Assembly: GCF_003073045.1 (NCBI RefSeq) | Contig: NC_037596.1 | Location: 10,413,950 to 10,477,949 of the forward strand | DNA from: Pomacea canaliculata | Taxonomy: Eukaryota; Mollusca; Gastropoda; Architaenioglossa; Ampullariidae | Direction of reading: 5' to 3' | DNA length: 64,000 nucleotides | In this document: piece by piece, positions 2,799 through 46,044 of the stretch | Numbering within the stretch: position 1 is the stretch's first letter | How the letters are laid out: the number at the start of each line of letters is the position of its first letter | Made by a program: the position numbers and the translations under genes | Notes under the pieces: model-generated | Databases searched by the model: none | Told to the model about the DNA's origin: nothing | Seen by the model: only the letters and a program-made list of their open reading frames with translations

Positions 2799-3007
2799 TC
2801 AGGTAGAGTAAACTTGCTTGATTGTGCTATACTCTGTAGCTTCGTGTTTGGGTGCTGGAAACTGTCGCCTGTTGTCAAACCTGAGTGACATGTAAGTCAG
2901 GCCATCCTGGTTTGTCCACCTGTCCTTATTCACCTCAGTACCACTAGAGCGAGTGGACGCAGACGTCCTACACCATCCATCCCCCAAACCTCGAATAATG
3001 AAGGGCG
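2799..3007 (-). CDS. A1 last exon: inhibitory cytoplasmic tail
   Basis: Terminal coding exon of A1. The acceptor follows ...atatttcag and phase 1 is completed by the G from the TM exon. It encodes 69 residues, including RGLGDGW near the start and a stop right after QVYST. The ITIM LTYMSL is at 2883-2900 and the ITSM TEYSTI at 2820-2837. The exon is clearly homologous to the A4 last exon (shared RGLG-GW, NQDGL, YSTxK), which supports it as real coding sequence rather than a chance reading frame. Confidence 0.85.
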
Positions 3008-6000
3008 CTGAAATATGTTATTCGTTTCTCAACATTAAATTTAATTTAATTTTCTTAGTGTGTTTTCAATAAACATAATTTAAAAATCGAACTTAAAATA
3101 TAATTTGAGCTGTAAACGTCTGCGCCCAAAACCTTTCTCAAAAACTCACGATAAGCTGTAACTTATTTTAAAAGGAGTTCAGACTTTAAAGTGACTCAGA
3201 GGCCACTGTGTAATAATTTGTTAAACTCAGAGGGCTTCAGCTAATATGTGTCATAGAAATTAACTTGAAATGAAGCTACTTTGTATGAAATTACTACTGT
3301 CAGGAAGCAATTCTATTTGTAAATGTTTGTTTACTCGTTTCGCTGAAAGCGCGTATTTGACACAAGGATAAAAGGGTTACACTGGACATAGCAGCGGGTA
3401 GATATATAAATAAATTTGCAGTCATTGATGGTTAATAGTTAAAGAGATTTCGGATTTTATGGTAAATATTAGTCTGAAGTGAAGAGAAACATAACAGAGT
3501 TTGAGCTTTTTTGTTACAGTAGTATTTAAAGAAAAATGGCATAGCTCAGCACAAGGAACTTTTCTCAGTTGAAATAAAACTGTATTCATCATTAGCATCA
3601 TCATTATTATCGTCTTTGTTGCCTTCCTTCTCGCTAAAAAAATATAGATATATATATATGCTGTGAAATGTCTGTCTCTTTTGCTTCTTTCTTCCCTCAC
3701 TCAATACTTTGGTCGCTAGCATCGAGTTCTCTCTCTCTCACACACATACACACAAGCATGCACATGCACTGCACGCTCTTGTGACTGAATACAAGTGTAT
3801 GTGATGAAGCATACAATGGATTATTTATAAGGAAATCTGATTTTGATAATACGGCCCTCAATTTAGTGAACCTCTAATTTTTTAGATTTTTTTCCCGACA
3901 ACTTTTTCAGTCGTGAAGGAAGTTTTAATAGAAGCACAACAGTTGCAATTTCGCTTTCCACTTTCCTTCAAAGCTTGTTCAGAATTGTTTAATCTTCAAT
4001 TCTCATATATGTTCCTGTCATTTGTTTTTTTTTTAAGGAAATATTCTAATTCAAAAGACATTCAAAAATATGTTTAGTTTTGATTTTTGTGCAGTTTAGT
4101 AAAAACAAAACTGCATTTACTACCTCTTTCAGTGCAAGTGCACAAATGTGAAAGTTAATCTAAAATTCAAACGATAAAAAAGTATGCCAGGGTAGCAGAA
4201 TTTAAAAAGGTGCTACCTTATATCTCTAAAAAGTTTTTGCTGAAGATATGGTGGTTTGAAAGACACAAAAACCAAGCATTGTCTTCGAACTATTGTTGTA
4301 AATGCATACTTTGAAATAACTAAACAATTGCCCTTTCAGACACACCATGGAAAATGATAGTGAGATTACTCATCTGCCACACAAGCAGTCTTACTGTGTG
4401 AAAGCAACCGTTGAATAGCATACTATACAAACACGCCAACGTACAATCTAAGATGCTTACAAAAGTAGTTCAAAAATTTGTTAAGATGATTGTTATGTTA
4501 ACACACCCTGCCTAGTTATACATGGAATAGAAGCATTATAGTAACAGTCTTCAGTGTAATATTTTTTGTATTTGTTATATTTATTTCAAATCCATAAATA
4601 AACAATAAGATAATAATCACAGACAAATAATATATGACTGGAAAACGGACAACACTATTCCCCTACAAAAATGGCGCTCGGTGCACACAAAAGTTCATCA
4701 AGGTTGTAATATTTCTCGTACAAGCAACAGGATATTAGCAGCTGATCCCGTAAATATTATAATTACAGAATATAAAAACTGATTACAATGTACTTGAGAA
4801 CTGAGGTGAAAAATTATCCAATGTTAGTTCTGCTGAGAGGCGAGAATAAATGTTTAAAATTGCAGCCGATAGAAAGTAAGAAAAGATATTACTAAACAAT
4901 AAAATAATAAAAATGTGTCGAAATGAGTAGTTATGCTTACCTGTGGGTTATTTTTCGCACAATTTGAAAAGATTTTTAAAATGGCGTTTCGATCGAGCAG
5001 TAGTAAGACTCTGGTTTGTCATAGCTAATACTTTGTATGTGACACCTGTTTAAAGGGATTATTTTAGAATATTCAGGTTCCCCCCTCCTTTCATCAACTA
5101 AACCCACTTGTAAAGTGTGAATCACTCAGATCTTGAAAGACCTTTCTATCAAATTAGTATAACCATGCCAGAATACTCGGGGTAACACCGTAACATAATT
5201 CATGGTTTTTTTTATTTTGTACCAGAATAATAATAAGAGTTCTGAACTTAGTGTCTTAAAAGATGGAGCTGATAACCATATCTATTACAGGTGGGTCAAT
5301 TCGTCAAAGTGACTAAGGAATATAATGATCTGCCACATCATCAGAGAAGACAACACACCTTAGCACTTTACTAAAGTTGTCCTTTTCGAGAATCTACCCT
5401 GCAACTCGCCTAAAATTTTCAGGATAAAAATCATCATGAACTTTTTAAACCACACTGTTTGGCGAAATATACGGTTGTCTTATGTCTTCTGATTAATTTA
5501 GTTATCTGTCACTAAGCGACAACACAAACACAGAAACAAAACAAACACAAAATAAATGCTTAACATTTCATATATTATTTAGTTTCAATAATTATAATAA
5601 ATACCTTTTCCTTTTTTCCTTCGCTTGATGACGACAACAATAATTACGACAGCTGAGATGAAAAGGATGACACCAATAACTCCACCAGCGACAGCCGCCA
5701 TGTTGGTGCGTGAACCCTTAGGGTCGTCGACTGATAACAAGTCGACTGATAACAAAGAGGGAGAAAATAACTCAGTTTGGTCCATTTTCAGAATTCTGCG
5801 TTGTATAAAGAAAGTATGTGACCATGCCCTCTGAAGTTAGAAGATCGTTAGTAAAAATGTTGTCTTATCGCGACTCGATGCAAAAAATTAAGAAGAAATG
5901 TTTTGATGAGAACGAGGATGCAGAGGCAAATGATCCGTAAGACTAAATAATAAGAACACAAGAGATACGCAAAAAGTTTCTAAGTCAAAGTTTTCACTCA

Positions 6001-9000
6001 AATACACCTATAAAAATGAACATTTCTATTTAACATTCTTGAGACAATTTATATGACCGCATGCCCTCATAACCCTTATAAATATAAATCTTTGTTGTCA
6101 CATTTTTTAAATGCTCACCATGCCTGATCTCAACAGTGAAGTTTTCATCGCCGACTTCATTGATAATCTGCACCTTGAGGGATCCAGCTGGTATATCAGA
6201 GGGAATGATGAAGATCGTCAGCACACACCTGGACAGGTAGCGGGTCTGTACATCAACCTTACAGGTGAAATTCGTCATCGGCTTAATATTCACGTTAGCA
6301 GCTTCACTGCTATTAGTAGTTAGTCGTGTAAGCCATACACCCCAGTCACGTGGTATGGGGTTAGAAATGACCTCGAAGGTCAGCTCCATTGGTTTGGTAG
6401 AAAGGTTGAGCACCTCGAGATGCCTGGATGAAATGTTCCTCGGCTTGCCTGTTAATGACACAGAGAAAGAGAGAAAAGCACACATAATACACCCACACAT
6501 AATCGTATTTACATGTATAAACATGTATAAACATGTATAAACACATATTCGTGTTTACATGCACACACGGGTAGATTAAAATCTGTGCAGGTATATATGT
6601 CAAAACACTGTTTTCTTCAAAATTCGGTCACAACATTCTCAAAGATCTTTTCTTTAATGTGCTTGTCTATATTTGATTGCAATCACGCGTATCTGCACAT
6701 TGAAAAAATTTAAATAAATATGTTTTAGTGTATTACATAACATAAAAACTAATTCACGGAGTTTTGATGTTGAGTCCCGGGAAATTTTCTGTAGTGTTTA
6801 CTCTTTACAGTCCAAAATTTCTGAGGTTTGGCCGCCGAAAAGGCATAAGTTTTTAATCCCACATGTTAATTGTTAAAAGTATTATAGCATGGACGATTAA
6901 AGGGAATAGCATAAAGTTTTGGACGATAGACAAGGCCCACACAGAACTACTTGTGTTTAAAATCTTTCAGTCCTCCACTTACACTGAACATCAAGGCTGA
7001 GGCTGACCAGTGTGGTCACGGTCCACTGACTGGAGCAGTTGTTTCTTGTAGAACATGTGTAAGAGGCTGTGTCTTCACATCGAGCGGCGATCGTGTGGTT
7101 GATGGACTGATTTCTCTGGAAGACTACACCGTTCTTACATAAAGTCACCTGTTGGATGTGTTTCCCATTTGACTGGCACCTGAAATGTACTTGGTCTGTC
7201 TCTCTGACTGTCTGGCTGCCATGCTTACTGTTTATTGAAAAGACTGCATCTGTGTCAGTTTCTGAAACAAAGTTTATAAACGTGAACATAACAAACAGGT
7301 CAATGGATGTTCACATTTTGGGATGTAGTAGCCGAACCCTACTGTCAGTTTTAACTTTACAGTGAAACTTTTCCGCTAATTGTGAAAATTTCTCTAAAGA
7401 AAACGCACCACAAAGGAAAATAATTTATTTATTCCAGAGGGTTTCTTGATATTTTTCTTCACATATCTCATGCTTTAATGTGTGAACTATCCCGAAAAAC
7501 CACAAATACTTTTTCATGCTTCTATGGGTTTTAATGATTTCTTAGTCGTTTTGTTATAGAGCTTCTTGTTTATTTTTAAATTAATTCTGTTTTAATTCTG
7601 TTTTTACCTCCACTTAGCATAAAATCAGCTTGGTAAACATTCCCTGAAAGCATTTATTGATTCCTTTAAAATCTCTGTTAAGAAAAAAATCAATGGAAAT
7701 AATTTTTCTTATATTCTTTATCTCAAAAAGTGAAGGCCAAAGAATTTCACATTTACCAGCAGGAATTAATTTGTTGTTCGTTGTAAAGATGACAGGGTAG
7801 CTTCGACCGCCTGGTGAGACAGTGACAAACAAGCTGTTGTTGACTTCTGGTGAAAGTCTTGTGTTGAAATAACAGGAACCTGACACCTTCACTTCACTCT
7901 CAGTGATCTTGTTACTGGTGGGTAACGTCGTCATGGTGACAGTTTCTAAGCTTTCGTTCTAAAACAATATTGTGAAGAATGTTTTTGTATTTATAAAGAC
8001 ACCTTCCCTGTAAATGGAATAGCAACAGATAAAATTGAATACATATACTGACACATCATCATCAGCAGCAGCAGTAGAATTGCTGTTATTATGTATGTTG
8101 TTTAAAGAGCTTTAATTCTTATTTTGGGGTTAAGCTCTATCTAAACTTTATTATTATTTATCATCACACAAGATGGATTTTAAGAAGAACATGTGTGAAA
8201 AATATTAGAAAAATATGGCTTGCACTCACATTATGCTCTGTACAACAACATTGAAACCGGCAAATAGAAAATAATTTGCTATTTGTTAGCTCTCACCTTA
8301 TCCCTCACTACAAGCAGGTGACACTTGTAGATTCTACGTGACGAGTAGACGCTTCCGATGACACAGGACACATTTACAGACAGAGTAGTTTCAACTCCTT
8401 CACATGACACATTCTCTGGTGAATCTGTTAAATGCCACACTTCAGTAACTTTAAATATTCCTAACGCAGATGTAAAAAATAAAGTAGAGAGAAAAAATAA
8501 CCATGCACACACACACACACACGTGTGAATGAGAGAAGAAAAATTGTTTGTCTCTCCCTCCCTCTCTCCCTCCCTCCCTCTCCCTCCCTCTCTCCCTCCC
8601 CCTCTCCCTCTCTCCCTCTCATATATTTTATATATAAGTAGATAAACTATTGTTTAATTTATAGTTGTGGATAAAGAATACGTACTGACAAAAAATATAG
8701 CCACTGACGTAAACGAAGAATACTAGAACACTTAGTTGAGTAAATATGTCAAATACATAATCTATCGAATAAAAACTACTCACACACGTAGTTCAGAGTA
8801 CAGTTAGCTGATCCGATGCTGTAAGTGTTGTTTATAAGAACACATTCCAGACTGCCGTTGACTAGCTCAATATTCTCGTGTATCTTCGTGTTGTTCTCAG
8901 CGTTGACGGTTATTCTTTTACTGTGAGCTCCTGTTACAGTTGCCTCGAATATCTCGCTGAATGGCGCCGAGACTAACATGGTACAGCTGCTTTGCGTGCA

Positions 9001-9530
9001 TTCTGCAAACCTGTGAGACTGATTTTGATGCCAGTGTAGTCTCCATTGTATGTCTCCGTCACCTGTGCAGGTGATAAACGTTTTCTGACCAGCCACTACT
9101 TCCACGAGGCCTTCATTGACACACTGCTCAATTTTTACTTCTGTAAAAAATGAAGCAGAAATAATGCTAGTATTCTACCATGTGCCTCTAGTGTCTCTCT
9201 CGCTCTCTCCTTCTTTTCCTCCTCTCTCTCTCTCTCACGACACATACCATCATTTACCCACTATTTGTTTCCACATACATAGCATGCGTACACTACATAA
9301 TAAAATACAAACGCTAATAAATACATACCACACATAAATACATATAGTTATTGATGCATTATTTTATAAAAAGTAAGCAGTCAGTGACATTTTTTTAACA
9401 AAATCCTGACGGAAAGTATTTCGCCATTAATTTCTTAAGAAGTCTACACTTGATCACCTCTAGCCACGGCCGGACACAACTGAAGAAGTAAAGCTGTCCA
9501 CAAAGTCCATACTCCGATGTTCCAGAACAT
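2799..9530 (-). CDS. A1: four-domain Ig-like receptor with ITIM/ITSM tail (567 aa)
   Basis: Predicted type I membrane receptor of inhibitory type. Coding exons, 5' to 3': 9458-9530 (signal peptide, starts MFWNIGVW), 8784-9140 (D1, six Cys), 8297-8424 and 7757-7958 (the two halves of D2), 6983-7261 (D3, with the Ig hallmark CEDTASYTC), 6119-6448 (D4, ends NEVGDENFTVEI), 5605-5730 (TM), 2799-3007 (tail). All have GT donors and AG acceptors; introns are phase 1 except phase 0 inside D2; total 1704 nt. TM is about residues 468-491, followed by KRRKK. The tail has an ITIM at Tyr537 and an ITSM at Tyr558. Known: such motifs recruit SH2 phosphatases (SHP type) in vertebrate receptors. Inferred: an inhibitory immune receptor of blood cells; the ligand is unknown. 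If the TM intron is retained, the protein ends GIYYNY. Confidence 0.85.
2820..2837 (-). other. ITSM motif TEYSTI in A1 tail
   Basis: Six codons match the switch-motif consensus TxYxx(V/I) exactly and are followed by Lys. The tyrosine is 21 residues after the ITIM tyrosine, a spacing compatible with tandem SH2 binding in vertebrate receptors. Confidence 0.75.
2883..2900 (-). other. ITIM motif LTYMSL in A1 tail
   Basis: Six codons match the inhibitory consensus (S/I/V/L)xYxx(I/V/L) exactly and are followed by Arg-Phe. CD33-related Siglec tails have the same style: an L-x-Y-x-x-L motif, then a T-E-Y-S motif about 20 residues further on. Confidence 0.75.
3008..5604 (-). other. Long last intron of A1
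   Basis: Separates the TM exon from the tail exon and holds the decayed micro-exon. From about 4860 upward it is homologous to 13130 onward, which marks one edge of the tandem duplication. The stretch 3010-4850 holds a CA/CT-rich patch near 3730-3770 and nothing else that I recognise. Confidence 0.6.
5046..5097 (-). pseudogene. Decayed copy of the family A 54-nt tail micro-exon in A1
   Basis: On the minus strand an acceptor-like ...gtgggtttag is followed by 52 nt ending in AACAG and a GTGTCA donor. The 3' half aligns with the 54-nt exons of A3 and A4, where it encodes (Y/F)YxxPWDTG-type sequence. Here two bases are missing: joining it after the TM exon moves the tail exon into a frame that soon meets a stop. 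A1 is only in frame if this exon is skipped, so I read it as a dead cassette. Confidence 0.5.
5726..5755. repeat. 15-bp tandem duplication at the A1 TM-exon acceptor
   Basis: Two exact copies of gtcgactgataacaa lie side by side. Each contains the splice acceptor (minus strand, ttatcag), giving exon starts at 5730 or 5745, both in frame. The longer form adds five residues (VDLLS). A2 has one copy at the equivalent place. Confidence 0.85.
8540..8622. repeat. Polypyrimidine CT/CCCT tract with adjacent (CA)n
   Basis: Low-complexity (ctccctc)n-like tract in the intron between D1 and D2 of A1, about 20 bases after a (CA)n run at 8506-8522. A2 lacks an equivalent expansion. Confidence 0.9.
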
Positions 9531-12500: not shown

Positions 12501-13534
12501 ACCTATCCTTTGCTGACATTATATTGGTAAGCATGTCTAACCGAAACAGTCGACATTTTACCTAGCACTCCATAAGATCTTAGAAGAAACACAAAATAGA
12601 CACTTAACTGTTAAGAAAAAGAAAAAAAAATGAAAGAAAAAGTAATGAAGTGTTCAGCTTAATCTAATGATAATATGGTTTACATATATTCACACGCTGA
12701 TCCACGTAACTTGTAGGCGTAGTTCTACCTTATTTTTCTCAGTCTGATGAGAATTAAGAATGTAGTAGAATATATGCCAAGCTCAAGCACTCCAAAAAAA
12801 ATTATTTAATAACTGTAACTTTGGAAGGTGAGTTGCTTACTAATGCATTAGAACATTTAAACTTAACTCCACTTTTTGCGCGGTTGAGATATTTTAAATA
12901 CAGGTATCTTTTCTTACCTTTAACAGCTCTTGATCCTCCTTCTCTCACGAATTTGGTGTTTGTCATTAGCTGAAAACTATTGCTAGAAAATGCTTCAAAA
13001 CTGTAAAAAAATATGATTTTTTAACACTCAACAGCATCAAACGCTGGCTCGTTGCTTCATCAATTATGTGTGTTGATCATCAAAACAATACATGCAAACG
13101 CCACGAGTCGGAAATAACTGTTCAAAATGACAGCCAATAGTTCGAGAAAGTATGAAAAGATATTACTAAATAGCAGGTGTCGAAATGGGTAGTGATGCTT
13201 ACCTACTACTCAGTTTTGCACAACTTTTCTTGAAAAGAAGCAAACTATAATGGCGTTCCCGTAGACCAGTAGTAAGACGCTGGTTTGTATGAGCACTTTA
13301 CTAAAATTGTCCCTTTCGATAATCAATCCTTCAACTCACCTAAAATTTGCAGGATAAAAATCATCCTGAACTTTTTGAACCACGTTTGACGAAACATACG
13401 GTTGTCTTATGTCTTCTGATTAATTTAATTATATCTGTCACGAAGCGACAACACAGACACAGACAAAAACACTCAAACACAATAAATGCTTAACATTTCA
13501 TATATTACTTAGTTTCAGTAATTATAATAAATAC
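9531..13534. other. A1 upstream flank and right end of duplicated unit
   Basis: No supported gene. About 9760-9890 aligns with 17780-17900 upstream of A2 and may be a shared promoter region. About 10440-11900 aligns with 19730-22250. A (ctgttgtgtt)n minisatellite of about three 10-bp units lies at 11371-11400. About 12590-13110 aligns with 23215-23670, including a degenerate copy of an A3-type tail exon near 12922-13010. A GC-richer patch at 12240-12420 has no match in the other unit and is unidentified. Confidence 0.6.
12917..13009 (-). pseudogene. Degenerate copy of an A3-type tail exon (3' of A2)
   Basis: The minus strand reads, after an acceptor-like ttttttacag, a stretch encoding FEAFSSNSFQLM and onward to ...SRAVKG before a GTAAG donor. 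It aligns with the A3 exon at 23490-23576. Relative to the A2 TM exon (phase 1) the join is out of frame by one base, so it cannot supply A2 with a tail without an additional change. Confidence 0.45.
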
Positions 13535-16500
13535 CTTTCCTTTTTTTCCATCGCTTGATTACGGCAAGAATAATTACGACAGCGTCGATGAAAAGGATGA
13601 CACCAATAATTCCACCAGTGACAGCCGCCATGTTGGTGCGTGAACCGTTAGGGTCGTCGACTGATAACAAAGAGCGAGAAAATAACCCAATTCGTCTTTC
13701 ATCTCAGAATTGTTCTTTGTTTAAACAAAGTATGTGACCATGTCCTCTGAATTAAGGAAAAGACCGTTAATGTAAATGTTGTCTTACCACAATTCGATAT
13801 AAAAAAATTTATGATGAAATGTTTTGATGAGAACCAGGATGCAGAAGCAAGGGATCACCAAGACTAATGAGAACACTAACGACACGCAAGAAGTTTCTAA
13901 GGCAAGCTTTTCACTCAAATACACTCATAAAAATGTACATTTCTGTTTACCGTTTTTAATACAATTTATATGAACGCATTCCCTCGTATCCCTTATAAAT
14001 CTTTGTTATCGCATTTTAAAGGCTCACCATGTTTGATCTCAACAGTGAAGTTTTCATCGCCAACTTCATTGATAATCTGCACCTTGAGGGATCCACTTGG
14101 GATCTCAGAGGGAATAATAAAGATGGTCAGCACACACCTGGACAGGTAGCGGCTCTGTACATCAACCTTACAGGTGATACTCGTCATCGGCTTAAGATTC
14201 TCATTAGGAGCTTCACTGCTATTAGTAGTTAGTCGTGTAAGCCATACACCCCAGTCACGTGGTATGGGATTAGCAATGACCTCGAAGGTCAGCTCCAATG
14301 GTTTGGTAGAAAGGTTGACCACCTCAACATGCCTGGCTGAAATATTCCTAGGCTTGCCTGTTAATGACACAGAGAAAGAGAGAGAAAGCACACATAATAC
14401 ACCCACACATATTCGTATTTACATATATGCATACGTACATACACCTGTAGATACATATCTATGCAGGCATATATGTCAAAACATTGTTTTTCTTTTTTTA
14501 AAAAGCTGTCACAATATTCGTGACGATCTTTTATTTAATGTGCTTGTCCGTATTTGTTTGAAAGCACGCCTATCTGCATATTGAAAAAAAATATATTTTT
14601 AGTTTACTACATAACAAAAAAAGTAAGTCATTGCGCTTTGATGTTGAGCCCCGGTAATTTTTCTCTAGAGCGTTTACTCTTTACAGTCCAGAATTTTTGA
14701 GGGTTGGCCTTCGAAAATGTGTAATATTTTAATAACAGATGTTAATTATTAAAAGTATTATAGCATGGACGATTAAACGGAATGAATAGCATAAAGCCTT
14801 GGACGACAGAAAAAAACCCACATAGAACTACTTCTGCTTAAAATCTTTCAGTCCTCCACTTACACTGAACATCAAGGCTGAGGCTGACCAGTGTGGTCAC
14901 GGTCCACTGACTGGAGCAGTTGTTTCTTGTAGAACATGTGTAAGAGGCTGTGTCTTCACAGCGAGCAGCGATCGTGTGGCTGATGGACTGATTTCTCTGG
15001 AAGACTACACCGTTCTTACATAAAGTCACCTGTGGTCTGTCTTTCCCATTTGACTGGCACCTGAAGTGTACTTGGTCTGTCTCTCTGACTGTCTGGCTGT
15101 CATGCTTACTGTTTATTGTAAACACTGCAACTGCGTCAGTTTCTGAAATTTATTTTATAAATAAGAAAACAGCAAACAGATTAATAGGTGTTCACATTTT
15201 TGAACCATGCCATCGTTTTTTGCCTTTACAGAGATATGTTTCTCTGTGTGAGCTAATGAAAACGCCTCACAAAGTAAGCTACAAAATAAATTTATCCGAG
15301 AGGGTTTGTTTATATTTTTCCTTGCGTATCTCATGCTTCAATGTGTGAACTATCCCTAAAGAAAAAAGTCATAAAAACAACAACTAGCAACTTTCATGCT
15401 TCTGTGGGTTTTAATGGTTTCTTACTCTGTTAAATTGCTTCTTGTTTATTTTTAAATTAATTCTTACTTAAGTAAGCTATGTCCACGACCTCCACATAAC
15501 ATAAAATCACCTTGGTAAACATTCTCTGAAAGCATTTATTGATTCCTTTTAAAAACTCTGTTAATAAAATGAATCAATGGAGATTATTTTCTTTATCATC
15601 TTTATCTCAAAGTGAAGGTAACAGAATTTCACATTTACCAGCAGGAATCAATTTATCTGTTCTAAAGATGACAGGGTAGCTCCGACCGCCTGGTGAGACA
15701 GTGACAAACAAGCTGTTGTTGACTTCTGGTGGAAGTCTTGTGTTGAAATAACAAGAACCTGACACCTTTACCTCACTGTCGGTGATCCTGATAGTAGTGG
15801 GTGACGTCGTCATGGTGACAGTTTCCAAGCTTTCGTTCTAAAAAAAATATTTTGAAGAATGTTCTTTTACTTATAAAGAGACCATCACTGTAAAATGAAT
15901 AGCACAAATAAAACTGCACATATTTACTGACACATCATCATCATTTTCATCATCATCATCATCATTGCTGTTTTTATGTCTATTTTTCAAGAGCTTTGGT
16001 GGCAGGCTTAAGCTTTATCTAAAGAAACTTTGTTATTATTTATATCAAACCAAATGGATTTTACGAAGAACATGTGTAAAAGGTATGAGAAAAATATAGT
16101 TTTTACTCACATTATGCTCTGTACAAGAACATTGAAACCGGCGAGTTCAAAATAATCTGCTAATTGTAATCTCTTACCTTATCCCTCGCTACAAGCAGGT
16201 GACACTTGTAGATTCTACGTGACGAGTAGACACTTCCGATACGGGACACAGGTACACATTGGGTTTTTACAGACAGTGAATTCAACTCCGTGGTGGTTCA
16301 ATGACACATTCTCTGGTGATCTGTTTATAACACGTTTTCAGTTTGTTAACTTTTAGAAATCCTAACACAGATGTAAAGATTCAAAAACAGAAAAAATAAG
16401 AAGCATACATACACACACGTATTCGTGACAGGAGAATAATTGTTTGAATGTTGTTTTATTTTACTTTCTGTCCACCAGATCTTCACTGCATGACACTTGA

Positions 16501-17567
16501 CATTTCCAGGTTTTGTCTTTTTTTTTTTTAAGTCTCAGTCTACTTCTGTACTTTGTGCTTTTTCGACTTGTTAGCAAGGTTTTAATCCCACTACTCATTT
16601 CTTTCATCCGATACTCTACATTTAAGCAGAGAATGTTTTCTTTTGTGGTCTGTCACTTTCTGTGTCACTCTCACTTAGACACAAACTGTCTCTCTCTCAC
16701 TGTCTCTCACATAAATACACACATTCGCAAATAAAAATATATATAAATATATTATAGATCAGTAACTAGACATACTACAATTGAATTAATGGTGGAGGAT
16801 AAAGAATACGCATCAACAAAAATATAGTCACACACTTAAACAAAGATTAATATCACACGTAGCTGGGTAAATATATTAAATACATAATCTAACAAATAAG
16901 AATACTTACAAACGTAGTTAAGAGTACATTTAGCTGATCCGATGCTGTAAGTGTTGTTTATAAGAACACATTCAAGACTGCCGTTGACTAGCAGAATATT
17001 CTCGTGTATCTTCGTGTTCTCAGCATTGATGGTGATTCTTTTACTGTGAGCTCCTGTTACACTTGCCTCGAATATCTCGCTGAATGGCGCCGAGACTAAC
17101 ATGGTACAGCTTCTTTGAGTGCATGCTGCAAACCTGAGAGTCTGGTTTTGATGCCAGTGTATTCTCCACTGTATGTCTCCGTCACCTGTGCAGGTGATAA
17201 ACGTTCTCTGACCAGCCACTACTTCCACGAGGCCGTCATTGACACACTGCTCAATTTTTACATCTGTAATAGGTAAAACAGAGATAAGCCTGCCAGCCCT
17301 GAATACATGTAATGCAAACCCAATATAAAAATAATGTAGACACGTAATTTGCAGACATATACATAGCCCTTAATGAACGATTACATAAACATTAAGAAAT
17401 CAGTTATCTATTTCTTTTTTTAAATCCTCCAATAAAGTATTTCTCCATAAATTTGTTTAGAAGTTTACACCTGTTTACACCTAGTTACCTTTAGCCACGG
17501 TTGGACACAAATGAACAAGTAAAATTCCAGTTATCCACAGAGTCCACATTCGGGTGTTCTGAATCAT
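13535..17567 (-). pseudogene. A2: broken paralogue of A1 (nonsense codon in D2, no tail found)
   Basis: Exons, 5' to 3': 17489-17567 (signal peptide, starts MIQNTRMW), 16910-17263 (D1), 16178-16320 and 15639-15837 (D2), 14864-15142 (D3), 14028-14357 (D4), 13535-13660 (TM). Splice sites and phases match A1, and D1, D3 and D4 are about 90% identical to A1 at the protein level. The first D2 exon is rearranged by several indels (net +15 nt) and reads an in-frame TGA at 16298-16300. Skipping both D2 exons would restore the frame (phase 1 to phase 1). No ITIM-type tail exon is visible downstream. The TM helix has an Asp (LFIDAVV) where A1 has Ser. It is either a recent pseudogene or a gene that makes a receptor lacking D2. 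Confidence 0.8.
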
Positions 17568-22547: not shown

Positions 22548-25500
22548 CTAGAAACGAAAAATAAACATAAATAAAGGCATTTGCAAGAACTTTTGTACAA
22601 ACTGTGGAATGTACTGTTAAAGGGATACTAACCCTTAAATACATATGCTTGCAGGATTCATAGAATGTTGTCACAAGATGCTGAAGATGTTGCACTTTCC
22701 TGCCACATGAGACTAGTGAAGTGCAAATTGCTGTTGAATATTTACGCGTTTCCTAGTTTCCGAAGATTAACGATCATACCTCCAAACAACCCGAGAGTAA
22801 GAAGTTCCGGAAGTGACGTCATCACATACAAAAAAAAAAAAACAAAACTGTGGAGGTTTCGTTGTCTTTAACGATCGTTTCTGCAAAAGATGTTTCCTCC
22901 GAAGAAGAGCCAAAATTCAAAGTAGTTTGCATATTCGAACTACTAGAGTAGTAATTCTGACTCACTTTCACTTTAAAATTACTCAATATTTAAAAACCCA
23001 GTGGAGTGCAAAAATTGTTACTAATGACTAGGTAAAAGTCAGTGTAAGATATTATTTATCCAAAGCTGGCTGAAGAACCTCTTAGTTTTTGAGACACACG
23101 CCTACAAACTTCACCATACACAAAAAGATGTAAACAACACAAACGTCAGGATAGTGTATTCACTTCTTTACCTTGAATTCCAAAGTAACAAAAAATGTAC
23201 ACATTACTATTAAGAAAAAAGAGAAAATGAAAGAAAATGTAATAATGTGTTCAGCCTAATCTAATGATAATATAATGTACACATATTCACACGCTGATCA
23301 ACGTAACTTCTAGATGTAGCTCTACCTGATTTTCTCACTCTGATGAGTGTGTAGTAGGCACTTTGCAAAATACATCATTTAATTTCCTTAACTTTTGAAA
23401 GTAAGCTGCTTACTAATTTATAAGAAGATTTAAACTTTACTCCACTTTCTGCGCGGCTGATGTATTCAAATACAGGTGTCACTTCTTACCGTTAACAGCT
23501 GTTGATCTTCCGTCTCTCACGAATTCAGTCTTTGTCATTAGCTCACAAATGCTATTAGAGATTGCTTCGAACGAGACTGTGTCCATTTTTTCTTAACTTT
23601 CAACAATTCCGGCCGACTGTTCCAGCAAGCATGTGCATTGATCCTCATAACAATCAATGCAAACGCAAAAATATTTTATTTATCCCAAAATAGTGTCGTG
23701 TCTTTATCATAACGTTTCTCTATAATTATCTTTAAGGACTGTCCATCCGTGGAAGACCAACTTCAGTGTACATGAAACCCATGATTGGTAATGTACGAGT
23801 GTATGTGTTGTCGTGCGACTGCATCCAAGAAACTTTGACTCGCACGACTGTCGTCATCATGGTAACCCCTTCATTAAAAAGTAAAACTAAGGCTCCCATA
23901 ACTTTTTCTGCAAACGACTAGGGGATCTTGCATTTGTACTAAATGAAGTATTCAATGGAGTTACAGCCAGTCAAAATAACAGTAAACAATATTTCTAACA
24001 AGTAATATTTTAATTAATGTCATTTATTAGTGTGCATACCTGGGTTAGTATCCCTTGAGTATCTTTGAAGAGTACACAAAACAAGTAAAACGAAAAAGCA
24101 GTAAAACATTTTAAAAGAATAACTTTTCATATTTTTATGTCTACGTATTTGTTTGTACGGACACTTTCTGTCGTGTTAAAGAGTTTACATTATTCTACAT
24201 GTTAATTATAAACACGAACTAAATTTAGGCTCCTGTCATTGGTACATTCCTTAAATATAACGACACCTTTTTAGAAATTCATATTTTTCTTCCATGTTTC
24301 TTATATTCTTACCTCCTTTAGCTCCTAGAGCACCATGTGGTTGTATCGTCGCTGTCTCCCCGGATGACTGGTGCTGTGATCTTTGAAGTGCTATAATACC
24401 AATGTTATGCAAAAGGAAATATTATGTATAATTACTGACTGATAAACCGATCAATGTTCAAACAGTAAAGATTTTTAAGCTTTGCAACTCCAGTTCAGTC
24501 TTGTCCCATGAAAAATGAAAGTTGTGTTCTTTGAAGAAACAACAGAACATAAATACTAGCAGTAGCAGTTATAATTAATCTGCCAAAAAGCTTAGTCGAT
24601 GAGCTTGTGCAATAAGTAATTAAAGAAGTTTCACAATTATACCCGTTACAACCTTACCTCTTCTTTTTTTCTTTTTGATAAAGTGATGGAGATGAATAGC
24701 CACGACTGAGATGAGAACACCAGCAGCACAAACAAACACCGTGGAACTCGTCACTATGATGATCTTTTTTGAATTGAAAGCAGTTGTTTCTCTGGTCTGA
24801 TCTTTAGAAAACAATGGGCAACGACTTAGAAATAAAGCAGAACACAGTGAAGTAATATATGTGTGTGTTTGTGTGTGTATTTTTTAAAATACATCTGATC
24901 ACATCGACAATATTCATTCCCAACAATTTTGCTTGCAATATTCATTTCTATTCCATGAATGCCGTGGATTATATTTATTTTAATTACGTTCAAAGATGTT
25001 AGGAATGACTTAATATGAGAGAAACAAAATCTACTGAATAGAAATGGTTGTGCTATGCAGTTGTAGACATCGTTGTAATTTGAGAGTAGATGAAATGTTT
25101 TAGCGAGTTAAACTACTAACATTCGATGTACTCATAGTAGACTAGATTAGTAAATTTCCAAGCTCACCATCGGTATTTTCCTGTTTGCTTGTAGGAAACA
25201 TTACCACGTGACTCCCTCTACCAGGCGAGACAGACACAAAGTAGAAAGAGTTGTGATCTTCTGCTGGGAGCGAGATGTTAAACTGACAGAAGCCAGACAC
25301 CTTCACGTCATCTTCTGCTATCTTATCGCTCGTCGTAAACGTCGTCATGTCCGCAGTCTGAAGACTTCCGTTCTTTGATTAAAAGGTAAAAGGAAAAAAA
25401 AAACACTTAGAGAAAATTAAAGGCCTAGACAAAATATGAATGACATTATAAGGCAACCAAAGGTTACAATTTAACATAGAGATAAACAAATAAAGGTATG

Positions 25501-27312
25501 TTGTTGTTAGTTCGCTTTCTTGGTTAGGTTTGACTGACTTACCTGTTTGCTTAGTTGGCTGGTCTTAAAACAGAATCCTTTCAATAAAACTGCCTTTCAT
25601 GGGATATCTATTTGGTTTTTTTTATTATTATTATTGCTTACCTTTGCTGAAAGAAACAACTCACACCTGTAGATTCTTCTTGATGAGTAGATGCGTCCAA
25701 TATGACATAACACACTGACAGATATTGAAGTTTTTTCCCCTCGGCATGACACATTCTCTGCAGGATCTGTTTCACAACAAATTATATATATAAAGTGTCA
25801 TCTTTGAGGAAATCGAAATCACAATTACACAGCATGTGTCATTTCCACCCTTGCATTCGAGACGCTTGTACTGCAAACAGTATTATTCTAGAGCAACAGC
25901 AACTACTCAGCATGAATCACAAGAAAAATATTTTGTATTTTGACATTATATATCGTAATTTTGAAGGGCAAACGATTGGTAAAGCATGAGAAGTATTTTA
26001 GATATATATATATATATCTTCAAAAGCAATTGCTAACCCCTAAGAATTTATTTTTCAAAAAATGACTGCCGTTAACTTATTCTGCCTGAAAAAACTATCA
26101 TTTACTATTATCTATCCTAGCGAGGAAAAGCACCATTAGAAGTTATCCATGTTGTTGGTGTTGTATGAAATGAAATGGTTTAAGAAACAATATAATTATA
26201 AACGTAATATACTTTTTTCTCTTTACGCGAAAATTTTACTTTCGTTTTGGGTTTTCTATAACGGCGAGCTTTTCTAGACCTAGAAACAAGAGCCACAAAC
26301 ACTTTCACGCACGCAGAAAGAAAATCTCAACTGTTAATGTCATTAAAAAAAAAAAATGTCAAAGAAAAAATATGATGCCTTACAGATAAAGTTGAGACCG
26401 CAGCTAATGATGTTTTGTTTGCCACACTGCAGACTTCCGTTGACTGTCTGGACCAGCTTATCTCTCATTGTGTTGTTCACAAGACTGACTGACACGGTGG
26501 TCCTCTCTTCATCACATAAAGTTAACAGGTACACATTCCTTAATGTAGTCGTGTTGGACTTCGTACCCGCTTGGCAGACTCCTAGCAGTGTGGTTCCTGT
26601 TACATCTGCCATTACAATCCTCCACTCCAGCCCTTCCTGGTGGACTCCACCACTGCATGTGAACGTTGTCACGTGACCATCCAACACGTCTGTGATGTTG
26701 TCCTTACCACATGGAGTAAGACTCAGACCTGAAAGAAAGAAAGAAAAAAATGTATGGAGTATTTCAATATTAAGCATACCAAGGTAAAAGCACTGCATTC
26801 TGCGTGGATTTGAGGTGAAAGGACAATTATTTTACATAGATTTCTATATTCACAGCTGGAGAAACAGGTAATCATTATTCACTTTAATGAGAAATATAAA
26901 TGTATATGGAGTGTGGTGCGTGCAACTCCTTTCCAATATCCCAAAATGTATTTCAATCATTCACCACATACACTGTCAGTGTGACAATCTAATGAAAAGC
27001 AATAAAAAGTTATCATTAACCTGAGAAAAAGCCTATATATGCTTTTATTTTCATATCTTATAACTGTTTCGAAATTAAATAAATAAATCATCTCTTTTAG
27101 GCTTGATTTGTTTTTCGTCAGAACGTTAACAGCGCAAATACTTTTCAAAAGACGTAAAAGAAGTTTTCTATTTACGAAAACAAATACTTGACTAAATTTG
27201 TCTTGAACACTTCATTAATAAATTTCAATGAGTACTTTCAAAAGTTTGTGTGAATACTACCTTTTACAATAAGCAGATCAACACTTAGAAGATAAATCCG
27301 CAATATCCACAT
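22494..27312 (-). CDS. A3: short two-domain Ig-like receptor, 3' end unresolved
   Basis: Exons, 5' to 3': 27261-27312 (signal peptide, starts MWILRIYL), 26384-26728 (D1, six Cys, starts GLSLTPCGKD), 25642-25766 and 25168-25372 (D2; YSSRRIYRC and KVSGFCQF), 24658-24801 (TM, then KKKKRR), then tail cassettes 24313-24390, 23490-23576 and 22494-22547. Every intron from D2 onward is phase 1, so the order reads through without a stop: 1090 nt, 363 codons so far. D3 and D4 are absent; only about 370 bp separate D2 from the TM exon. The 22494-22547 cassette ends EIFYEIPWDTG and is homologous to an A4 exon. The last exon with a stop was not found. The 24313-24390 and 23490-23576 cassettes rest on splice sites alone, and the second could instead be a first exon, because an ATG lies ten bases upstream at 23586. 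Confidence 0.7.
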
Positions 27313-40449: not shown

Positions 40450-43400
40450 TCAAGAAGGATGAACTTGGGGTTGTATCACTTTCACTGTGCTATACTTAGT
40501 AGGTTCGTGTGGCTGGGAGATGTACTGTTCCCTGTCGTTAAAACTAGGCGACACGTAAAGTAAACCATCTTGGTTCCTCCATCTGCCTGTATCCACTGCG
40601 CCATCAGGAGAGCAGGGGGCTGTCCTCCATCCGGGCCCTAGGCCTCGAACTGTGAGGGGCACTGCAATTAATAAATTTAATTGTCATAAATTATATTCGG
40701 TATGTTCTGTTTAGCCCTTTTCTGCTTCATACCGAAACACATTAAGTGAAATTAACTTCAGTTTCTAAGTTCATTTCCTGTGCTGCTTTGATGAACTGCT
40801 ATAGACGGTCACATTTAAACTACAGCAGACTGATTGTGAATAGCTTGACAAACGCAGGTCACTTCGATGACCGCATACTATATAACTATATTCTATTTCA
40901 GCAAGAATTAACGTGATTCCATTTAAATCTTTTTGTTGTAGTTATTTTTTTAAAGTCCATTTTACACTGTACCTGTGTCCCAGGGATTCTGGTAAATGGT
41001 GTCACTTGTATTCTCCAACTTGCAATCTATACAAGAAAAAAATGAGTAAAGAAACGTATATTTTGTACTTTAAAAAACAGTACAAGTACAGAATTTTGCC
41101 CATCACATCTTCATGCATTTATCCGTTACAACTAGGTGAAATGTTTTATGCTGCTTCGGGGAGAAGATGTAGACTGACATTTCTGGAGTCAAAGGATACA
41201 ATGAAGCAGATTTAAGAACAAAATATATATTTTTCTAATCGATGTATGATAATCAGTACTGGTTTTTTAATCACAGGCGTTTTAGTTTGTTTTCGAGCAA
41301 ACTGATTATAATTATATTATGATAATAACCAAGGGCTCCATTCTAGAATAGAGACACGTGTCCTGTTAAAAACTACGAGTACATGTACATAATATCCTGG
41401 CCAAAAGTGTTGTTAAGGGTTAAAAGCGTACAAGTAATTGTAAGATAGTTTAATAATGTTCCGTACTTTCGTTTCCTTTAGTAAATTGACAACTTTTTAA
41501 CATCTGCATTGTATCTCACTTTCAGTTTGTGCCCAAGTGAAATGAATTGTTGGGTAAAAATAGGTGGTCTACATTGTATATTTACTTTGTATCTTTACCA
41601 ATTCAATATAAAATGTTTATTTCTCTCTGTTGAAAACTCAGTATTAAAAGATAAAAACGGGATTATAACATTCTTACTGTTGTACAATAAGTCAAACAGT
41701 ATGTTTTATTTATATCTTCACACTTTCTATGTCTCTTTCGGCGTTTATACCAAAAACTATTCGTAATATAAGTTGGTGGAGTAAGCCCTCTGTGCATTTT
41801 AGCTGTTTTCCCCACCATCCTAGCTAGTCTTTGATTCAAGTGTACATCTAAGATACGATGTTATGTGAATAATAAAGTACGTTTATTTCCTTAGTTAATG
41901 CTGATTTTGGTTTTCATTTAGAGAAATAGTTTTCAAATAGACTTTTGTCTGATAAAGATGTTCTTGTTATTAAGCTGCTATAAATACGTGGATACGAGAC
42001 CTGACCTTTTCCCGATTTTCTCCGTCTGTTGACGACAAAGAGAACGAGGACTGTTAAGATGATCAACAGAAAGGCACCGATAACTCCTCCAGTGACAGAT
42101 TTGGTGAGTGGCTCATCAGGAATGTGCACTGTTTAAAAACATTTCAGTGTGATCAGTTGAGCAAACATTCTTCTGCGCATTAGCAAAGGAACTGGGTATC
42201 CAGTAGTGGATAATCAACTAAATGCTCTTTAAGTGGATTTGTGAATAGGATGATGAGGATGAAAAGGAGAAATAATAATGATACAACAGGTAAAATACTA
42301 TGAGTGAACCTGCTCACTAAAGCTTACAATTATTCAATTTTCTATTTTAAAACTCATGTAATATATAGGCTCTAACATTTCTTTAAAATATTACCAAATT
42401 CATAATTTTTTTACATGTACAGTTAATATCATGTATACTTTTTGAAGTAAACTAAAATAATGACCGACTTGTTCTTGTATACCATCCATCAAAGAATCTT
42501 TCCATCCCCTTAATTCCCCCAGACATATGAGTATTTACATACTAAGATTTTGAATTTGAGTTGCATTACATCTGCGCCTATATTTATCATAACACGCTAA
42601 TCTAATAATGATTATACTCAAAACATGTAAAATCTAGTCCCTAGATATAATTATCACAATGTGCTTATCAGAGATCACAAACTCACTCGAGGTCACATCC
42701 ACGGTGAAGTTTTCATCGCCAACCTCATTGATCACCTGTATTTTGTATGAGCCAGTCGACTGTAAAGTGATGTTGAAAATATTAAGGATACACTGGAACA
42801 CGTATCGGCGTGTTTGGTCAGGTGTACAGGTAACATTCATTACCAAACCGTTAGGGTGAACATGATATACTTTGTTTAGTGGTCCAGCAAACCACACGTT
42901 ATACTTATAAGGTGCAGGGTAGGAGATGAGTTCAAAGGTCACCTCCGCTGTCATGTTATCAATGTTGACGTTACCAAGGTAATTGGAAGAATGATGCCTA
43001 GGCTTACCTGTCACATATACGACAAAATACAAAGGATAAGTAAAGGCACAGTAACACTCACTTTTCACTAAAACACAAAGGTCATGACCCCTTAATGTTT
43101 TTGTTTGCAACTTCAAAAGATTATTGATAGATAATATTTATAGAAAACAGTTATGGGGTGGACAAAATGTTGCTCTACTTAAATATATTACATTTGACAT
43201 CCAAGCTGACGTTTAGAGAGGTTGTAGCTGATGATGGACTGAAGGATTTATTCCCCAAGAAGCACATGTACATGGTTGTGTCTTCACAGCGAGCGATGAA
43301 AGTGTAGTTGACGACCGACGAGTTGCTCGTTATAACAGTGTTGTTGTCGCCATTACTGATTGACATCTCTGATGGTGGTAGGCCATCGGCTTCACATCTG

Positions 43401-46044
43401 AGGTTCACATAGTCTCCCTCCATAACAGTTTCATTTTTCTCACGATTGTTTATCAAAAACGATATCTTGTTAAAGTCTCCTGAAAAAATATAAATGGTCT
43501 TGTAAATGAAAATTTGTACATGTTATCCTTTCTGCAAAAGATATCTTTTTTAAAAAAATCTAGATCTGAATATGAAATGTTTATGACCAGAAAAATCTTT
43601 ATCACCAGTGATCCCTTTGTCAATGCTCTCCAACTTCAAAAGGAAGTGCCGACCGCCTGGTGAGACAGAAACATAGAACCTGTAGCCTCCTGCCTCTGAT
43701 GGTAGTGGTGTGTTGAACTGACAGGATCCTGACACTTTCACTTCACTCTTGGTGATCTTGTCAGTAGTTGGTGATGTCACCATAGTCACACTTTCCAATA
43801 TTTCTTTTTCTGTCTGAAATAAATATATTCCTATTAATACGAACAAATATCCCAGCATATATTTACCAAAGGCATTATCAATTTACATAATGAGCATCAG
43901 CTCTTCTTTTTTTTTTCTTTTGAATTTTGATTTTGGATTTAGCAGATATTTTATTTGCCTTATGAAAGGCCAGCAATGGATACTTTGTAAAACGCTTATT
44001 ATTAGTTAACCTGCTTACTATTTTCTTACGAAAAGACATCGAATGGTGGACTTTCTAAGCTGCTTTACATTAATGAAGAGATTTATATTAATGGAGATTC
44101 ATTACATCGTCACACATCAGATATCAATTCATAAAAATTTTTGAGCTTTCGCGTGTTTACAAATTTGCAGTAATTTGTTTTAAACACTATTCATGTTCAT
44201 ATCGAGTCATAAACAAAAGTGTTAAATCTTCGTAGCAAAGTTATCATTAATCTGTTCTAATATCTAAACAAATATCTAACGCAAGTTGTCAAAATATCCT
44301 ACTAAGCATAAAATTAAACAAGCATTTCCATGCTATCAAAAATAAAATACTTAAATGTTATAACACTTACTCCATTTTTAAATCGAAGCAGGTGACACAT
44401 GTAAATGTTGCGAGATGAATAGACAGCGCCAACAACACATGACAACGATTTGTTTACCTCCTGACATGACACGTTCTCTGGCGGAGCTGTTTCGAAAGAA
44501 AGGTACACTAGACCAAAACTATTATAAGAAATAAAAAGATTAAAAGAATAAGGTAGACAGCTACTGAAAAGTACTGTTGTCATGATGATAGAAAGCATGT
44601 ATTATTTTATTTGTTCAGGAAATTTTTTAAAAGTCAAGGATCAATCTTTTTAATCTCTTTTTTATTTTCAATAGCTATTTCTTTCCCAATTGACTATCTC
44701 AAAATTCATTTGTAACCTCGAGATAAAGTAGGAACAACAATTGCATGTATTTTAATTTTAACGAAAATTTATCTTCACATGATAAAAGGGGAACAAAAAA
44801 ATCGTGTTTGTCTGAGAGATAATAAATGTGAACTTTTCTACATTCATTTATTTCTAACATAATCATTCTTTAATATACAGGCGTGCACTTATCTTCAGCA
44901 AATCGCTTGACTTGAAAGTACAAAAAAAAAAAAAAAAAAAAAAAAAAACAACCTTAAGTATCTTATCTTATTAAACATTCATATCAGTCAGATCTGAGAA
45001 AACCAGTCGACCTATGAGCATATATTAAGCAACTTTAATCAGTTAATTCTTATTCCATATTTCAAGAACCAGGTTCGACATGCTTGTGCCACTCATTATT
45101 CGGAAAGCAAGAAAAGGCAGACTACTTACACACATAGTTAAGTCCACATACAACAGGGCTTTCCTTTGTCTTTGGAGTACACAGCAGAGTGCCATTCACA
45201 ATCTGAACCTTGTTATATATCAGTGTACTGTTCACAGCATTGATGGTCAATGTAGGATGAGAGTCTTGAACACTTGCTGTAAATGTTTTCTCAAAAGCAT
45301 CAGATGGATTGCAGGCATTTCCGTCACAGGATGCTAACAGCACTTGAGTCGCTACATTGTCCACATTTAACCTCCACTCTATCTGTCCTCCATTCATGCA
45401 GACAAACTGAGTTTTCTGTCCAGCTGTTACGTCACTAACTCCGTCCCTTCCGCATGGTGTGAGGGTTACACCTGTACATTAACAACGGTTACATATAAAC
45501 CACATGCGGGTAAATTATGTAACTCGTAGCAACTGAAGACTAGGTAACCAAACTTCTTGATGCCTTAATATCGTAGATGCAAATGTTAGAAGAAGGTGTG
45601 AGGGAAGACACAATATTTTGAATGTACGTGTGCTTGTGAAACCTCTACAGCCCTTGGTCTTCGGACTTATATGTTGTAAATATGTGTCTACACATTAATG
45701 CACACGAGCACAACACACACACACACACACACATTGACAGGCACAATCACACATTCTCTGTGTAATCTATGATGTATATAGTACATCTTAATATGCTCTG
45801 CAGCGACTAGCAATTATCACGAAAAAGCTTAATAAATATACATTCACGACATGAAGAAGAGAGCTATAAAAAAAACTCCACGTAATCAACTTGTACACAG
45901 AAATATCTCCCACGCGTGAAAAAAAAACTAACCTACTTTTAAAATTACTTTGAAGACTTGGAAAAGTAATTCACCTGCAACAGATGATATAACATAAAGA
46001 AGAATGAAAGTTCCAGCTGTCCATGTTAGGCACGTTCCTGACAT
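40450..46044 (-). CDS. A4: four-domain Ig-like receptor with ITSM tail (577 aa)
   Basis: Exons, 5' to 3': 45975-46044 (signal peptide, starts MSGTCLTW), 45130-45471 (D1, six Cys, starts GVTLTPCGRD), 44371-44486 and 43606-43813 (D2), 43192-43479 (D3; RCEDTTMYMC), 42687-43007 (D4; ends NEVGDENFTVDV), 42006-42128 (TM, then NRRRKSGKG), 40973-41026 (micro-exon), 40450-40661 (tail). Total 1734 nt, all phases consistent. The micro-exon adds Tyr501 in TIYQNPWDTG; YQN fits the Grb2-type SH2 consensus. In the tail Tyr543 sits in LLYVSP, where Pro replaces the ITIM aliphatic residue, and Tyr564 in the ITSM TKYSTV. As in A1 the two tyrosines are 21 residues apart. Inferred role: regulatory immune receptor, with signalling weaker than or different from A1. 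Confidence 0.87.
40483..40500 (-). other. ITSM motif TKYSTV in A4 tail
   Basis: Exact match to TxYxx(V/I), at the position of TEYSTI in A1. The partner motif at 40546-40563 reads LLYVSP and no longer fits the ITIM consensus. Confidence 0.7.
40973..41026 (-). CDS. A4 54-nt tail micro-exon (PWDT type)
   Basis: Phase-1 cassette between ...cttgtatag and GTACAG, encoding CKLENTSDTIYQNPWDT plus split end codons. It is homologous to 22494-22547 in A3. Confidence 0.75.
44922..44948. repeat. Poly(A) tract in A4 intron
   Basis: A run of 27 A within the intron between D1 and D2. The aligned A5 intron near 51040 has none. Confidence 0.9.

Follow-up and report, generated by a model that had tools for sequence, protein, structure and literature searches.

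Results

A predicted receptor gene with a two-motif cytoplasmic tail

We analyzed a 64,000-nucleotide stretch of the Pomacea canaliculata genome, hereafter the window, which corresponds to C7:10413950-10477949 of a 440.16 Mb, 24-contig assembly in which C7 has a 7% share. Our subject is A1, a predicted minus-strand gene whose final exon encodes a cytoplasmic tail with two tyrosine motifs, an immunoreceptor tyrosine-based inhibitory motif (ITIM) followed by an immunoreceptor tyrosine-based switch motif (ITSM). The exons of A1, including one for a transmembrane (TM) helix, are listed in the order in which they would be transcribed.

9459..9530 (limits approximate), minus strand: probable signal-peptide exon, identified by its resemblance to the candidate in the paralogue A2
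8784..9140, minus strand: ig0, N-terminal domain exon, predicted V-type immunoglobulin (Ig) fold
8297..8424, minus strand: ig1a exon, phase-0 intron to ig1b
7757..7958, minus strand: ig1b exon, phase-0 intron to ig1a
6983..7261, minus strand: ig2, Ig domain exon showing Cys...DTAxYxC; Pfam Ig_3 matches weakly and below cut-off (E 1.3e-4)
6119..6448, minus strand: ig3, exon of the membrane-proximal Ig-like domain; seven-strand model of low confidence (predicted local distance difference test, pLDDT, 58)
5605..5730, minus strand: TM exon, acceptor at 5730 or 5745, donor GAAAAG/gtatttat at 5605, phase 1
2799..3007, minus strand: cytoplasmic tail exon with two motifs, LTYMSL (ITIM-type; Y=TAC) and TEYSTI (ITSM-type; Y=TAT), tyrosines 21 apart, terminal stop

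In the prediction, exons ig0, ig1a, ig1b, ig2, ig3 and TM have GT-AG borders with agreeing phases. The tail exon (3007-2799) starts at a CAG acceptor and translates as APFIIRGLGDGWCRTSASTRSSGTEVNKDRWTNQDGLTYMSLRFDNRRQFPAPKHEATEYSTIKQVYST, followed by its stop. The phase-1 TM donor at 5605 is compatible with the acceptor at 3007, and across this predicted junction the spliced frame is uninterrupted from the N-terminal domain exon through the TM exon to the tail stop, which bears out the splice site and frame proposed in an earlier model-made note on this DNA (the original prediction). The exon chain, TM exon and V-type ig0 model predict A1 to be a type I membrane protein that bears recognition domains.

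The ITIM consensus is [SIVL]xYxx[ILV] and the ITSM consensus is TxYxx[VI] (PMC8631942). LTYMSL meets the first and TEYSTI the second, and the tail translation upholds the order and the 21-residue tyrosine distance that had been claimed for them. An ordered ITIM-to-ITSM pair at 15-30 residues arose in 0.0175% of 200,000 shuffles of the 69-residue A1 tail. Across all six frames of the whole window, 3 strict motif pairs were observed, whereas 60 simulated sequences of 64 kb averaged 0.3. Because of these three pairs the motif argument alone is weak: a bare motif pair in raw sequence is not rare and by itself proves little. What carries the evidence beyond chance, and makes the pair convincing, is homology, since the tail exon is repeated in copy C of the window and at 51 places genome-wide, all of them on C7. 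Judged on sequence, the A1 tail exon is genuine.

The tail exon belongs to a family on C7

With the A1 tail as query, 17 places were found at E<=10, and 17/17 lie on C7. Four queries taken from tails of other clusters gave 20/20, 19/19, 15/15 and 25/25 on C7; combined, the five queries returned 96 hits at 51 distinct places (51/51 on C7, 0.25-30.9 Mb), some of the hits being individually weak (E up to 3.07). The reversed A1 tail, our control, had a single match, on C10, with E 3.07 and a stop within it. The ig3 exons are likewise confined to C7 (30 at E<=1.4e-9, 30/30); the genes are clustered in tandem and their ectodomains are homologous, with clusters on C7 at 6.6-6.9 and 9.6-10.5 Mb. Three V-type exons related to ig0 make up a small satellite group outside chromosome 7, at C1:31.716-31.730 Mb.

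The original prediction had proposed conservation of the two tyrosines as a check. Run among paralogues, this check favors it: both tyrosines are in frame in 30 of the 35 readable tails (35/51), two of which (L079, L080) are identical across the motifs. Motif counts refer to these 30, with the five failing tails excluded. Among the latter, the motifs of the 30.70 Mb tail (L072/L081) fall in different frames, and the 10.07 Mb tail (L094) contains a stop and has lost the first motif. The other three come from C7 0.25-1.4 Mb, where three copies were read of five found and the second tyrosine is lost or out of frame: L084 (1.37 Mb) has the first motif with the second Tyr changed to Ser, and L085 (0.36 Mb) and L093 (0.25 Mb) have the first motif with the second in another frame, the Tyr of L085 being also Phe.

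Tyrosine spacing in the 30 tails is 21 in 3, 23 in 16 and 24 in 11. The first motif is a strict ITIM in 19, has Pro at +3 in 10 and Ala at +3 in 1; the second fits TxYxx[VI] in 20 and TxYxx[VIL] in 27. Seventeen of the 30 combine a strict ITIM with a strict ITSM, A1 included. The claim of an ITIM+ITSM tail stands for A1 itself and does not extend to the whole of the large family to which it belongs, since 10/30 tails are non-ITIM at motif 1. All four TAT/TAC combinations of the two Tyr codons occur, and the invariant columns in the first 17 tails are N28, G31, L32, Y34 and Y55 (first-row numbering).

The ratio of nonsynonymous to synonymous substitution rates (dN/dS) was obtained for 16 pairs of tails, two of them undefined by saturation, and is <0.6 in 12 of the 14 defined pairs. 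It is 0.16 for A1 versus its 10.39 Mb neighbor (dS >1), 0.15 for the 27.1 versus 27.5 Mb copies and 0.17-0.57 in ten further pairs, with 0.87 and 1.16 in two near-identical pairs. Between A1 and A2, dN/dS is 0.22-0.50 in the Ig exons and 1.17 in the TM exon.

Four tails at C7 9.9-10.2 Mb (L020, L021, L023, L025) have extra tyrosines, GDYQNI and EDYVQL, upstream of the conserved pair, together with Pro at +3 of motif 1. GDYQNI is of the pYxN type. The subfamilies with Pro at +3, including the four tails with GDYQNI/EDYVQL, probably signal differently.

Other copies in the window and the pairing of tails with ectodomains

Besides A1, the window holds four further copies or partial copies:

13533..17567, minus strand: A2 paralogue, 87-92% identity to A1 in ig0, ig1b, ig2 and ig3; TM helix with Asp
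25181..27312, minus strand: B, partial copy, with a signal candidate, ig0, ig1a and ig1b the only parts found
40450..40661, minus strand: C tail exon, LLYVSP (non-ITIM, Pro at +3) and TKYSTV (ITSM consensus), 21 apart; phase-1 acceptor
42004..46044, minus strand: C receptor, with signal candidate, ig0, ig1a, ig1b, ig2, ig3 and TM exons, the last with a phase-1 donor at 42006
47238..52018, minus strand: D receptor, TM exon reading FIVINK then TGA, with a GTGAGG donor overlapping the stop

The same phase-1 TM-tail junction occurs in A1 and C. In A2 the TM donor is retained and no tail exon was found; its TM helix (13533-13661, minus strand) has Asp in ILFIDAVV where A1 has Ser. A2 is possibly a partner-dependent form, or in decay. 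The tail of D would be short if unspliced. Interleaved with the receptor cluster are two plus-strand genes, at 33119-34250 and 57626-59440, which combine a TM exon with an extracellular exon of a different, Cys-rich kind.

Tails were paired with ig3 exons on the same strand within 8 kb downstream. The script paired 16/30 ig3 exons; the partner assigned to D is the tail of C, so we count 15, at distances of 2.1-5.6 kb. A same-strand upstream tail was found for 0/30 ig3 exons and an opposite-strand tail for 3/30. Of the 15 paired tails, that at 10.07 Mb is damaged and that at 10.216 Mb (unread) has a stop within the match. At 6.85-6.89 Mb, three tails have no ig3 exon and follow V-type exons of the same strand at a distance of 6.1-8.4 kb. 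A recognized tail is absent within pairing range in 15/30 ig3 copies, a count that may overlook tail exons that have diverged. This mix of tailed and apparently tail-less members resembles, in gene structure, that of paired receptors.

SH2 signaling components in the genome

Genome-wide, 46 SH2 matches were found. Exons for two SH2 domains and a phosphatase domain lie at C2:35.208-35.218 Mb. The SH2 piece is closer to SHP-2 (E 3.4e-42) than to SHP-1 (2.4e-29), and the phosphatase piece matches the protein tyrosine phosphatase (PTP) family (receptor PTP epsilon 6.3e-18, SHP-2 4.5e-17). By these matches, the genome encodes an SHP-type tandem-SH2 phosphatase that is SHP-2-like; a second SHP is possible, since only part of the 46 were identified. 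A SHIP-like SH2 domain lies at C14:8.87 Mb (E 2.4e-12). At C13:17.768-17.773 Mb, three Csk-like SH2 exons (L026, L027, L029), two of them adjacent, fall inside 5 kb.

Discussion

How the tails may signal

We favor, with moderate confidence, a reading in which the A1 family is paired-receptor-like, recruits SHP-2 and would be inhibitory. In PD-1 and BTLA the ITIM and ITSM tyrosines are 25 apart, and bivalent docking at a conserved distance has been proposed (PMC8631942); SHP-2 activation is governed by linker length and head-to-tail order (PMC10231330). In Siglec-3 (Y340/Y358) and Siglec-9 (Y433/Y456), loss of the ITIM/ITSM tyrosines weakens inhibition (PMC10906256). The snail tails fit this bivalent-docking geometry, which makes recruitment of SHP-2 the likeliest mechanism.

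For the family we infer expression, phosphorylation, SHP-2 docking, inhibition, cell type and ligand, and the mechanism could run as follows. The receptor would consist of a signal peptide, an N-terminal V-type Ig domain, more Ig-like domains, one TM helix and the two-tyrosine tail. Ligand binding would cluster receptors, and a Src-type kinase would phosphorylate the tyrosines of GLxYxxL and TEYxxI. With the spacing fixed at 21-24, SHP-2 could dock through its two SH2 domains in head-to-tail order; this would open the phosphatase, and the opened SHP-2 would damp a neighboring activating signal, probably in haemocytes. By analogy with the paired-receptor families of vertebrates, copies that lack a tail exon may act as decoys or as activating partners.

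Several observations weigh against this reading. Five of 35 tails are broken or tyrosine-less, and motif 1 carries Pro (10/30) or Ala (1/30) at +3. The conservation comparison is one of paralogues within one genome. The intron phase of the tail exon varies among copies: in an acceptor scan of 23 tails, phase 0 was best in the 12, 26, 27 and 30 Mb copies, and the exon limit was undecided for most of the 23. All Pfam matches of the A1 ectodomain are below cut-off, and the ig3 model had zero Foldseek matches at E<=0.001. Lastly, SHP-2 is not inhibitory by default and can act positively, so 'inhibitory' stays an inference; of the inhibitory receptor system in the original prediction, the motifs, their order, the frame, the splice site and an SHP-2 gene are the parts that stand.

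The alternative that survives best, which we consider unlikely yet worth weighing, is that the tails recruit SHP-2 with an activating or adhesive outcome. In the fly, corkscrew is an SHP-2 that serves as a positive signaling element, and the sole phosphatase locus identified here is closer to SHP-2 than to SHP-1. Set against this, an ITIM+ITSM at similar spacing occurs in numerous inhibitory receptors that recruit SHP1/SHP2 (PMC8631942), and the absence of a recognized tail from half of the ig3 copies is what paired systems predict.

It is improbable that the main partners of the phosphotyrosines are SH2 proteins of other kinds, be they SHIP or Grb2-, Crk- or SAP-like, varying by subfamily. 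The prolines at +3, the GDYQNI and EDYVQL tyrosines added in four tails and the SHIP-like SH2 domain would suit such docking; A1 and 16 others, however, retain both strict consensuses at a spacing of 21-24. A slightly lower probability attaches to the motifs being YxxPhi endocytic or sorting signals instead of SH2 sites. YMSL and YSTI fit that motif too, but sorting signals are not known to require Thr/Leu at -2 or a fixed pair distance, both of which the tails keep; the first motifs with Pro at +3 (10/30) would also no longer fit YxxPhi. That the tail is a pseudogene or a misjoined exon with motifs due to chance is very improbable: motif pairs do arise by chance in the window and some tails are damaged, but the 51 homologous exons on a single contig, the low dN/dS of 12/14 pairs and the phase-1 junction common to A1 and C all argue otherwise.

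For the A1 family as a paired-receptor-like, SHP-2-recruiting system, we also offer a tentative extension, which we hold with distinctly less confidence. The family may be a chromosome-restricted set of paired inhibitory and tail-less Ig receptors, with at least 51 tail exons, in which bivalent ITIM/ITSM-SHP-2 docking serves self/non-self control by haemocytes: a protostome 'leukocyte receptor complex' whose tail is either converged or bilaterian. If this is true, checkpoint-type signaling (ITIM+ITSM with SHP-2-fit spacing) is not vertebrate-only and a protostome has a large gene family for it. It could then be asked whether molluscan haemocytes spare self via inhibitory receptors, and whether the design of the tail is inherited or evolved anew.

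Comparison with known receptor systems

A gastropod ITIM+ITSM family was not found in the literature searched (mollusc, gastropod, snail, Biomphalaria, Pomacea), most subscription journals being outside its coverage. Invertebrate ITIM receptors are already known from tunicates and cnidarians. Botryllus fester co-receptors (FcoR, 53 loci reported) and Hydractinia Alr are invertebrate Ig-superfamily receptors with ITIM-type tails (PMC12065747). Both are allorecognition receptors, of a tunicate and a cnidarian, as against the mollusc family here, and FcoR differ further in having hemITAM forms and a sushi domain; PMC12065747 does not use the word ITSM. Among molluscan Ig receptors, the oyster has CgSiglec-1, linked to inhibitory signaling, and CgIgIT2, linked to signaling of the immunoreceptor tyrosine-based activation motif (ITAM) type (PMC5877582, PMC11999971). 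These are single bivalve genes; in the accessible text, an ITIM in CgSiglec-1 itself is not stated and no ITIM+ITSM family is described.

The tandem arrangement, with long-tailed beside apparently tail-less members, is like that of LILR, KIR and NITR, the vertebrate paired receptor complexes, a likeness of gene layout (an activating adaptor or ITAM partner was not sought in the snail). SIRP-alpha and PECAM-1 are further vertebrate ITIM/ITSM receptors. The snail family differs from the vertebrate ITIM/ITSM receptors in several respects: no specific ectodomain kinship to them was seen at the Pfam level, its tails were found on one chromosome only and 10/30 first motifs are non-ITIM. Members of the PD-1/CD28 family have a single IgV ectodomain, and A1 does not fit this pattern, having more than one Ig-like domain (the V-type ig0 model, the weak Pfam Ig match of ig2 and further extracellular exons). 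CD33-related Siglecs share a homologous ectodomain whose V-set domain has a conserved Arg that binds sialic acid; to them, the likeness of the A1 ectodomain is at the level of the general V-type fold, as predicted for ig0.

The resemblance claimed in the original prediction was to CD33-type Siglec and PD-1 tails. In spacing the snail tails are intermediate: the snail tyrosines, 21-24 apart, fall between those of Siglec-3 (18) and of PD-1 and BTLA (25), and 16/30 tails have the 23 of Siglec-9. Like CD33-related Siglecs, PD-1 and BTLA, the snail receptors have a predicted V-type N-terminal Ig domain, a single TM helix and an ITIM followed by an ITSM near the C-terminus. Together this suggests a molluscan counterpart of the vertebrate immune checkpoint receptors.
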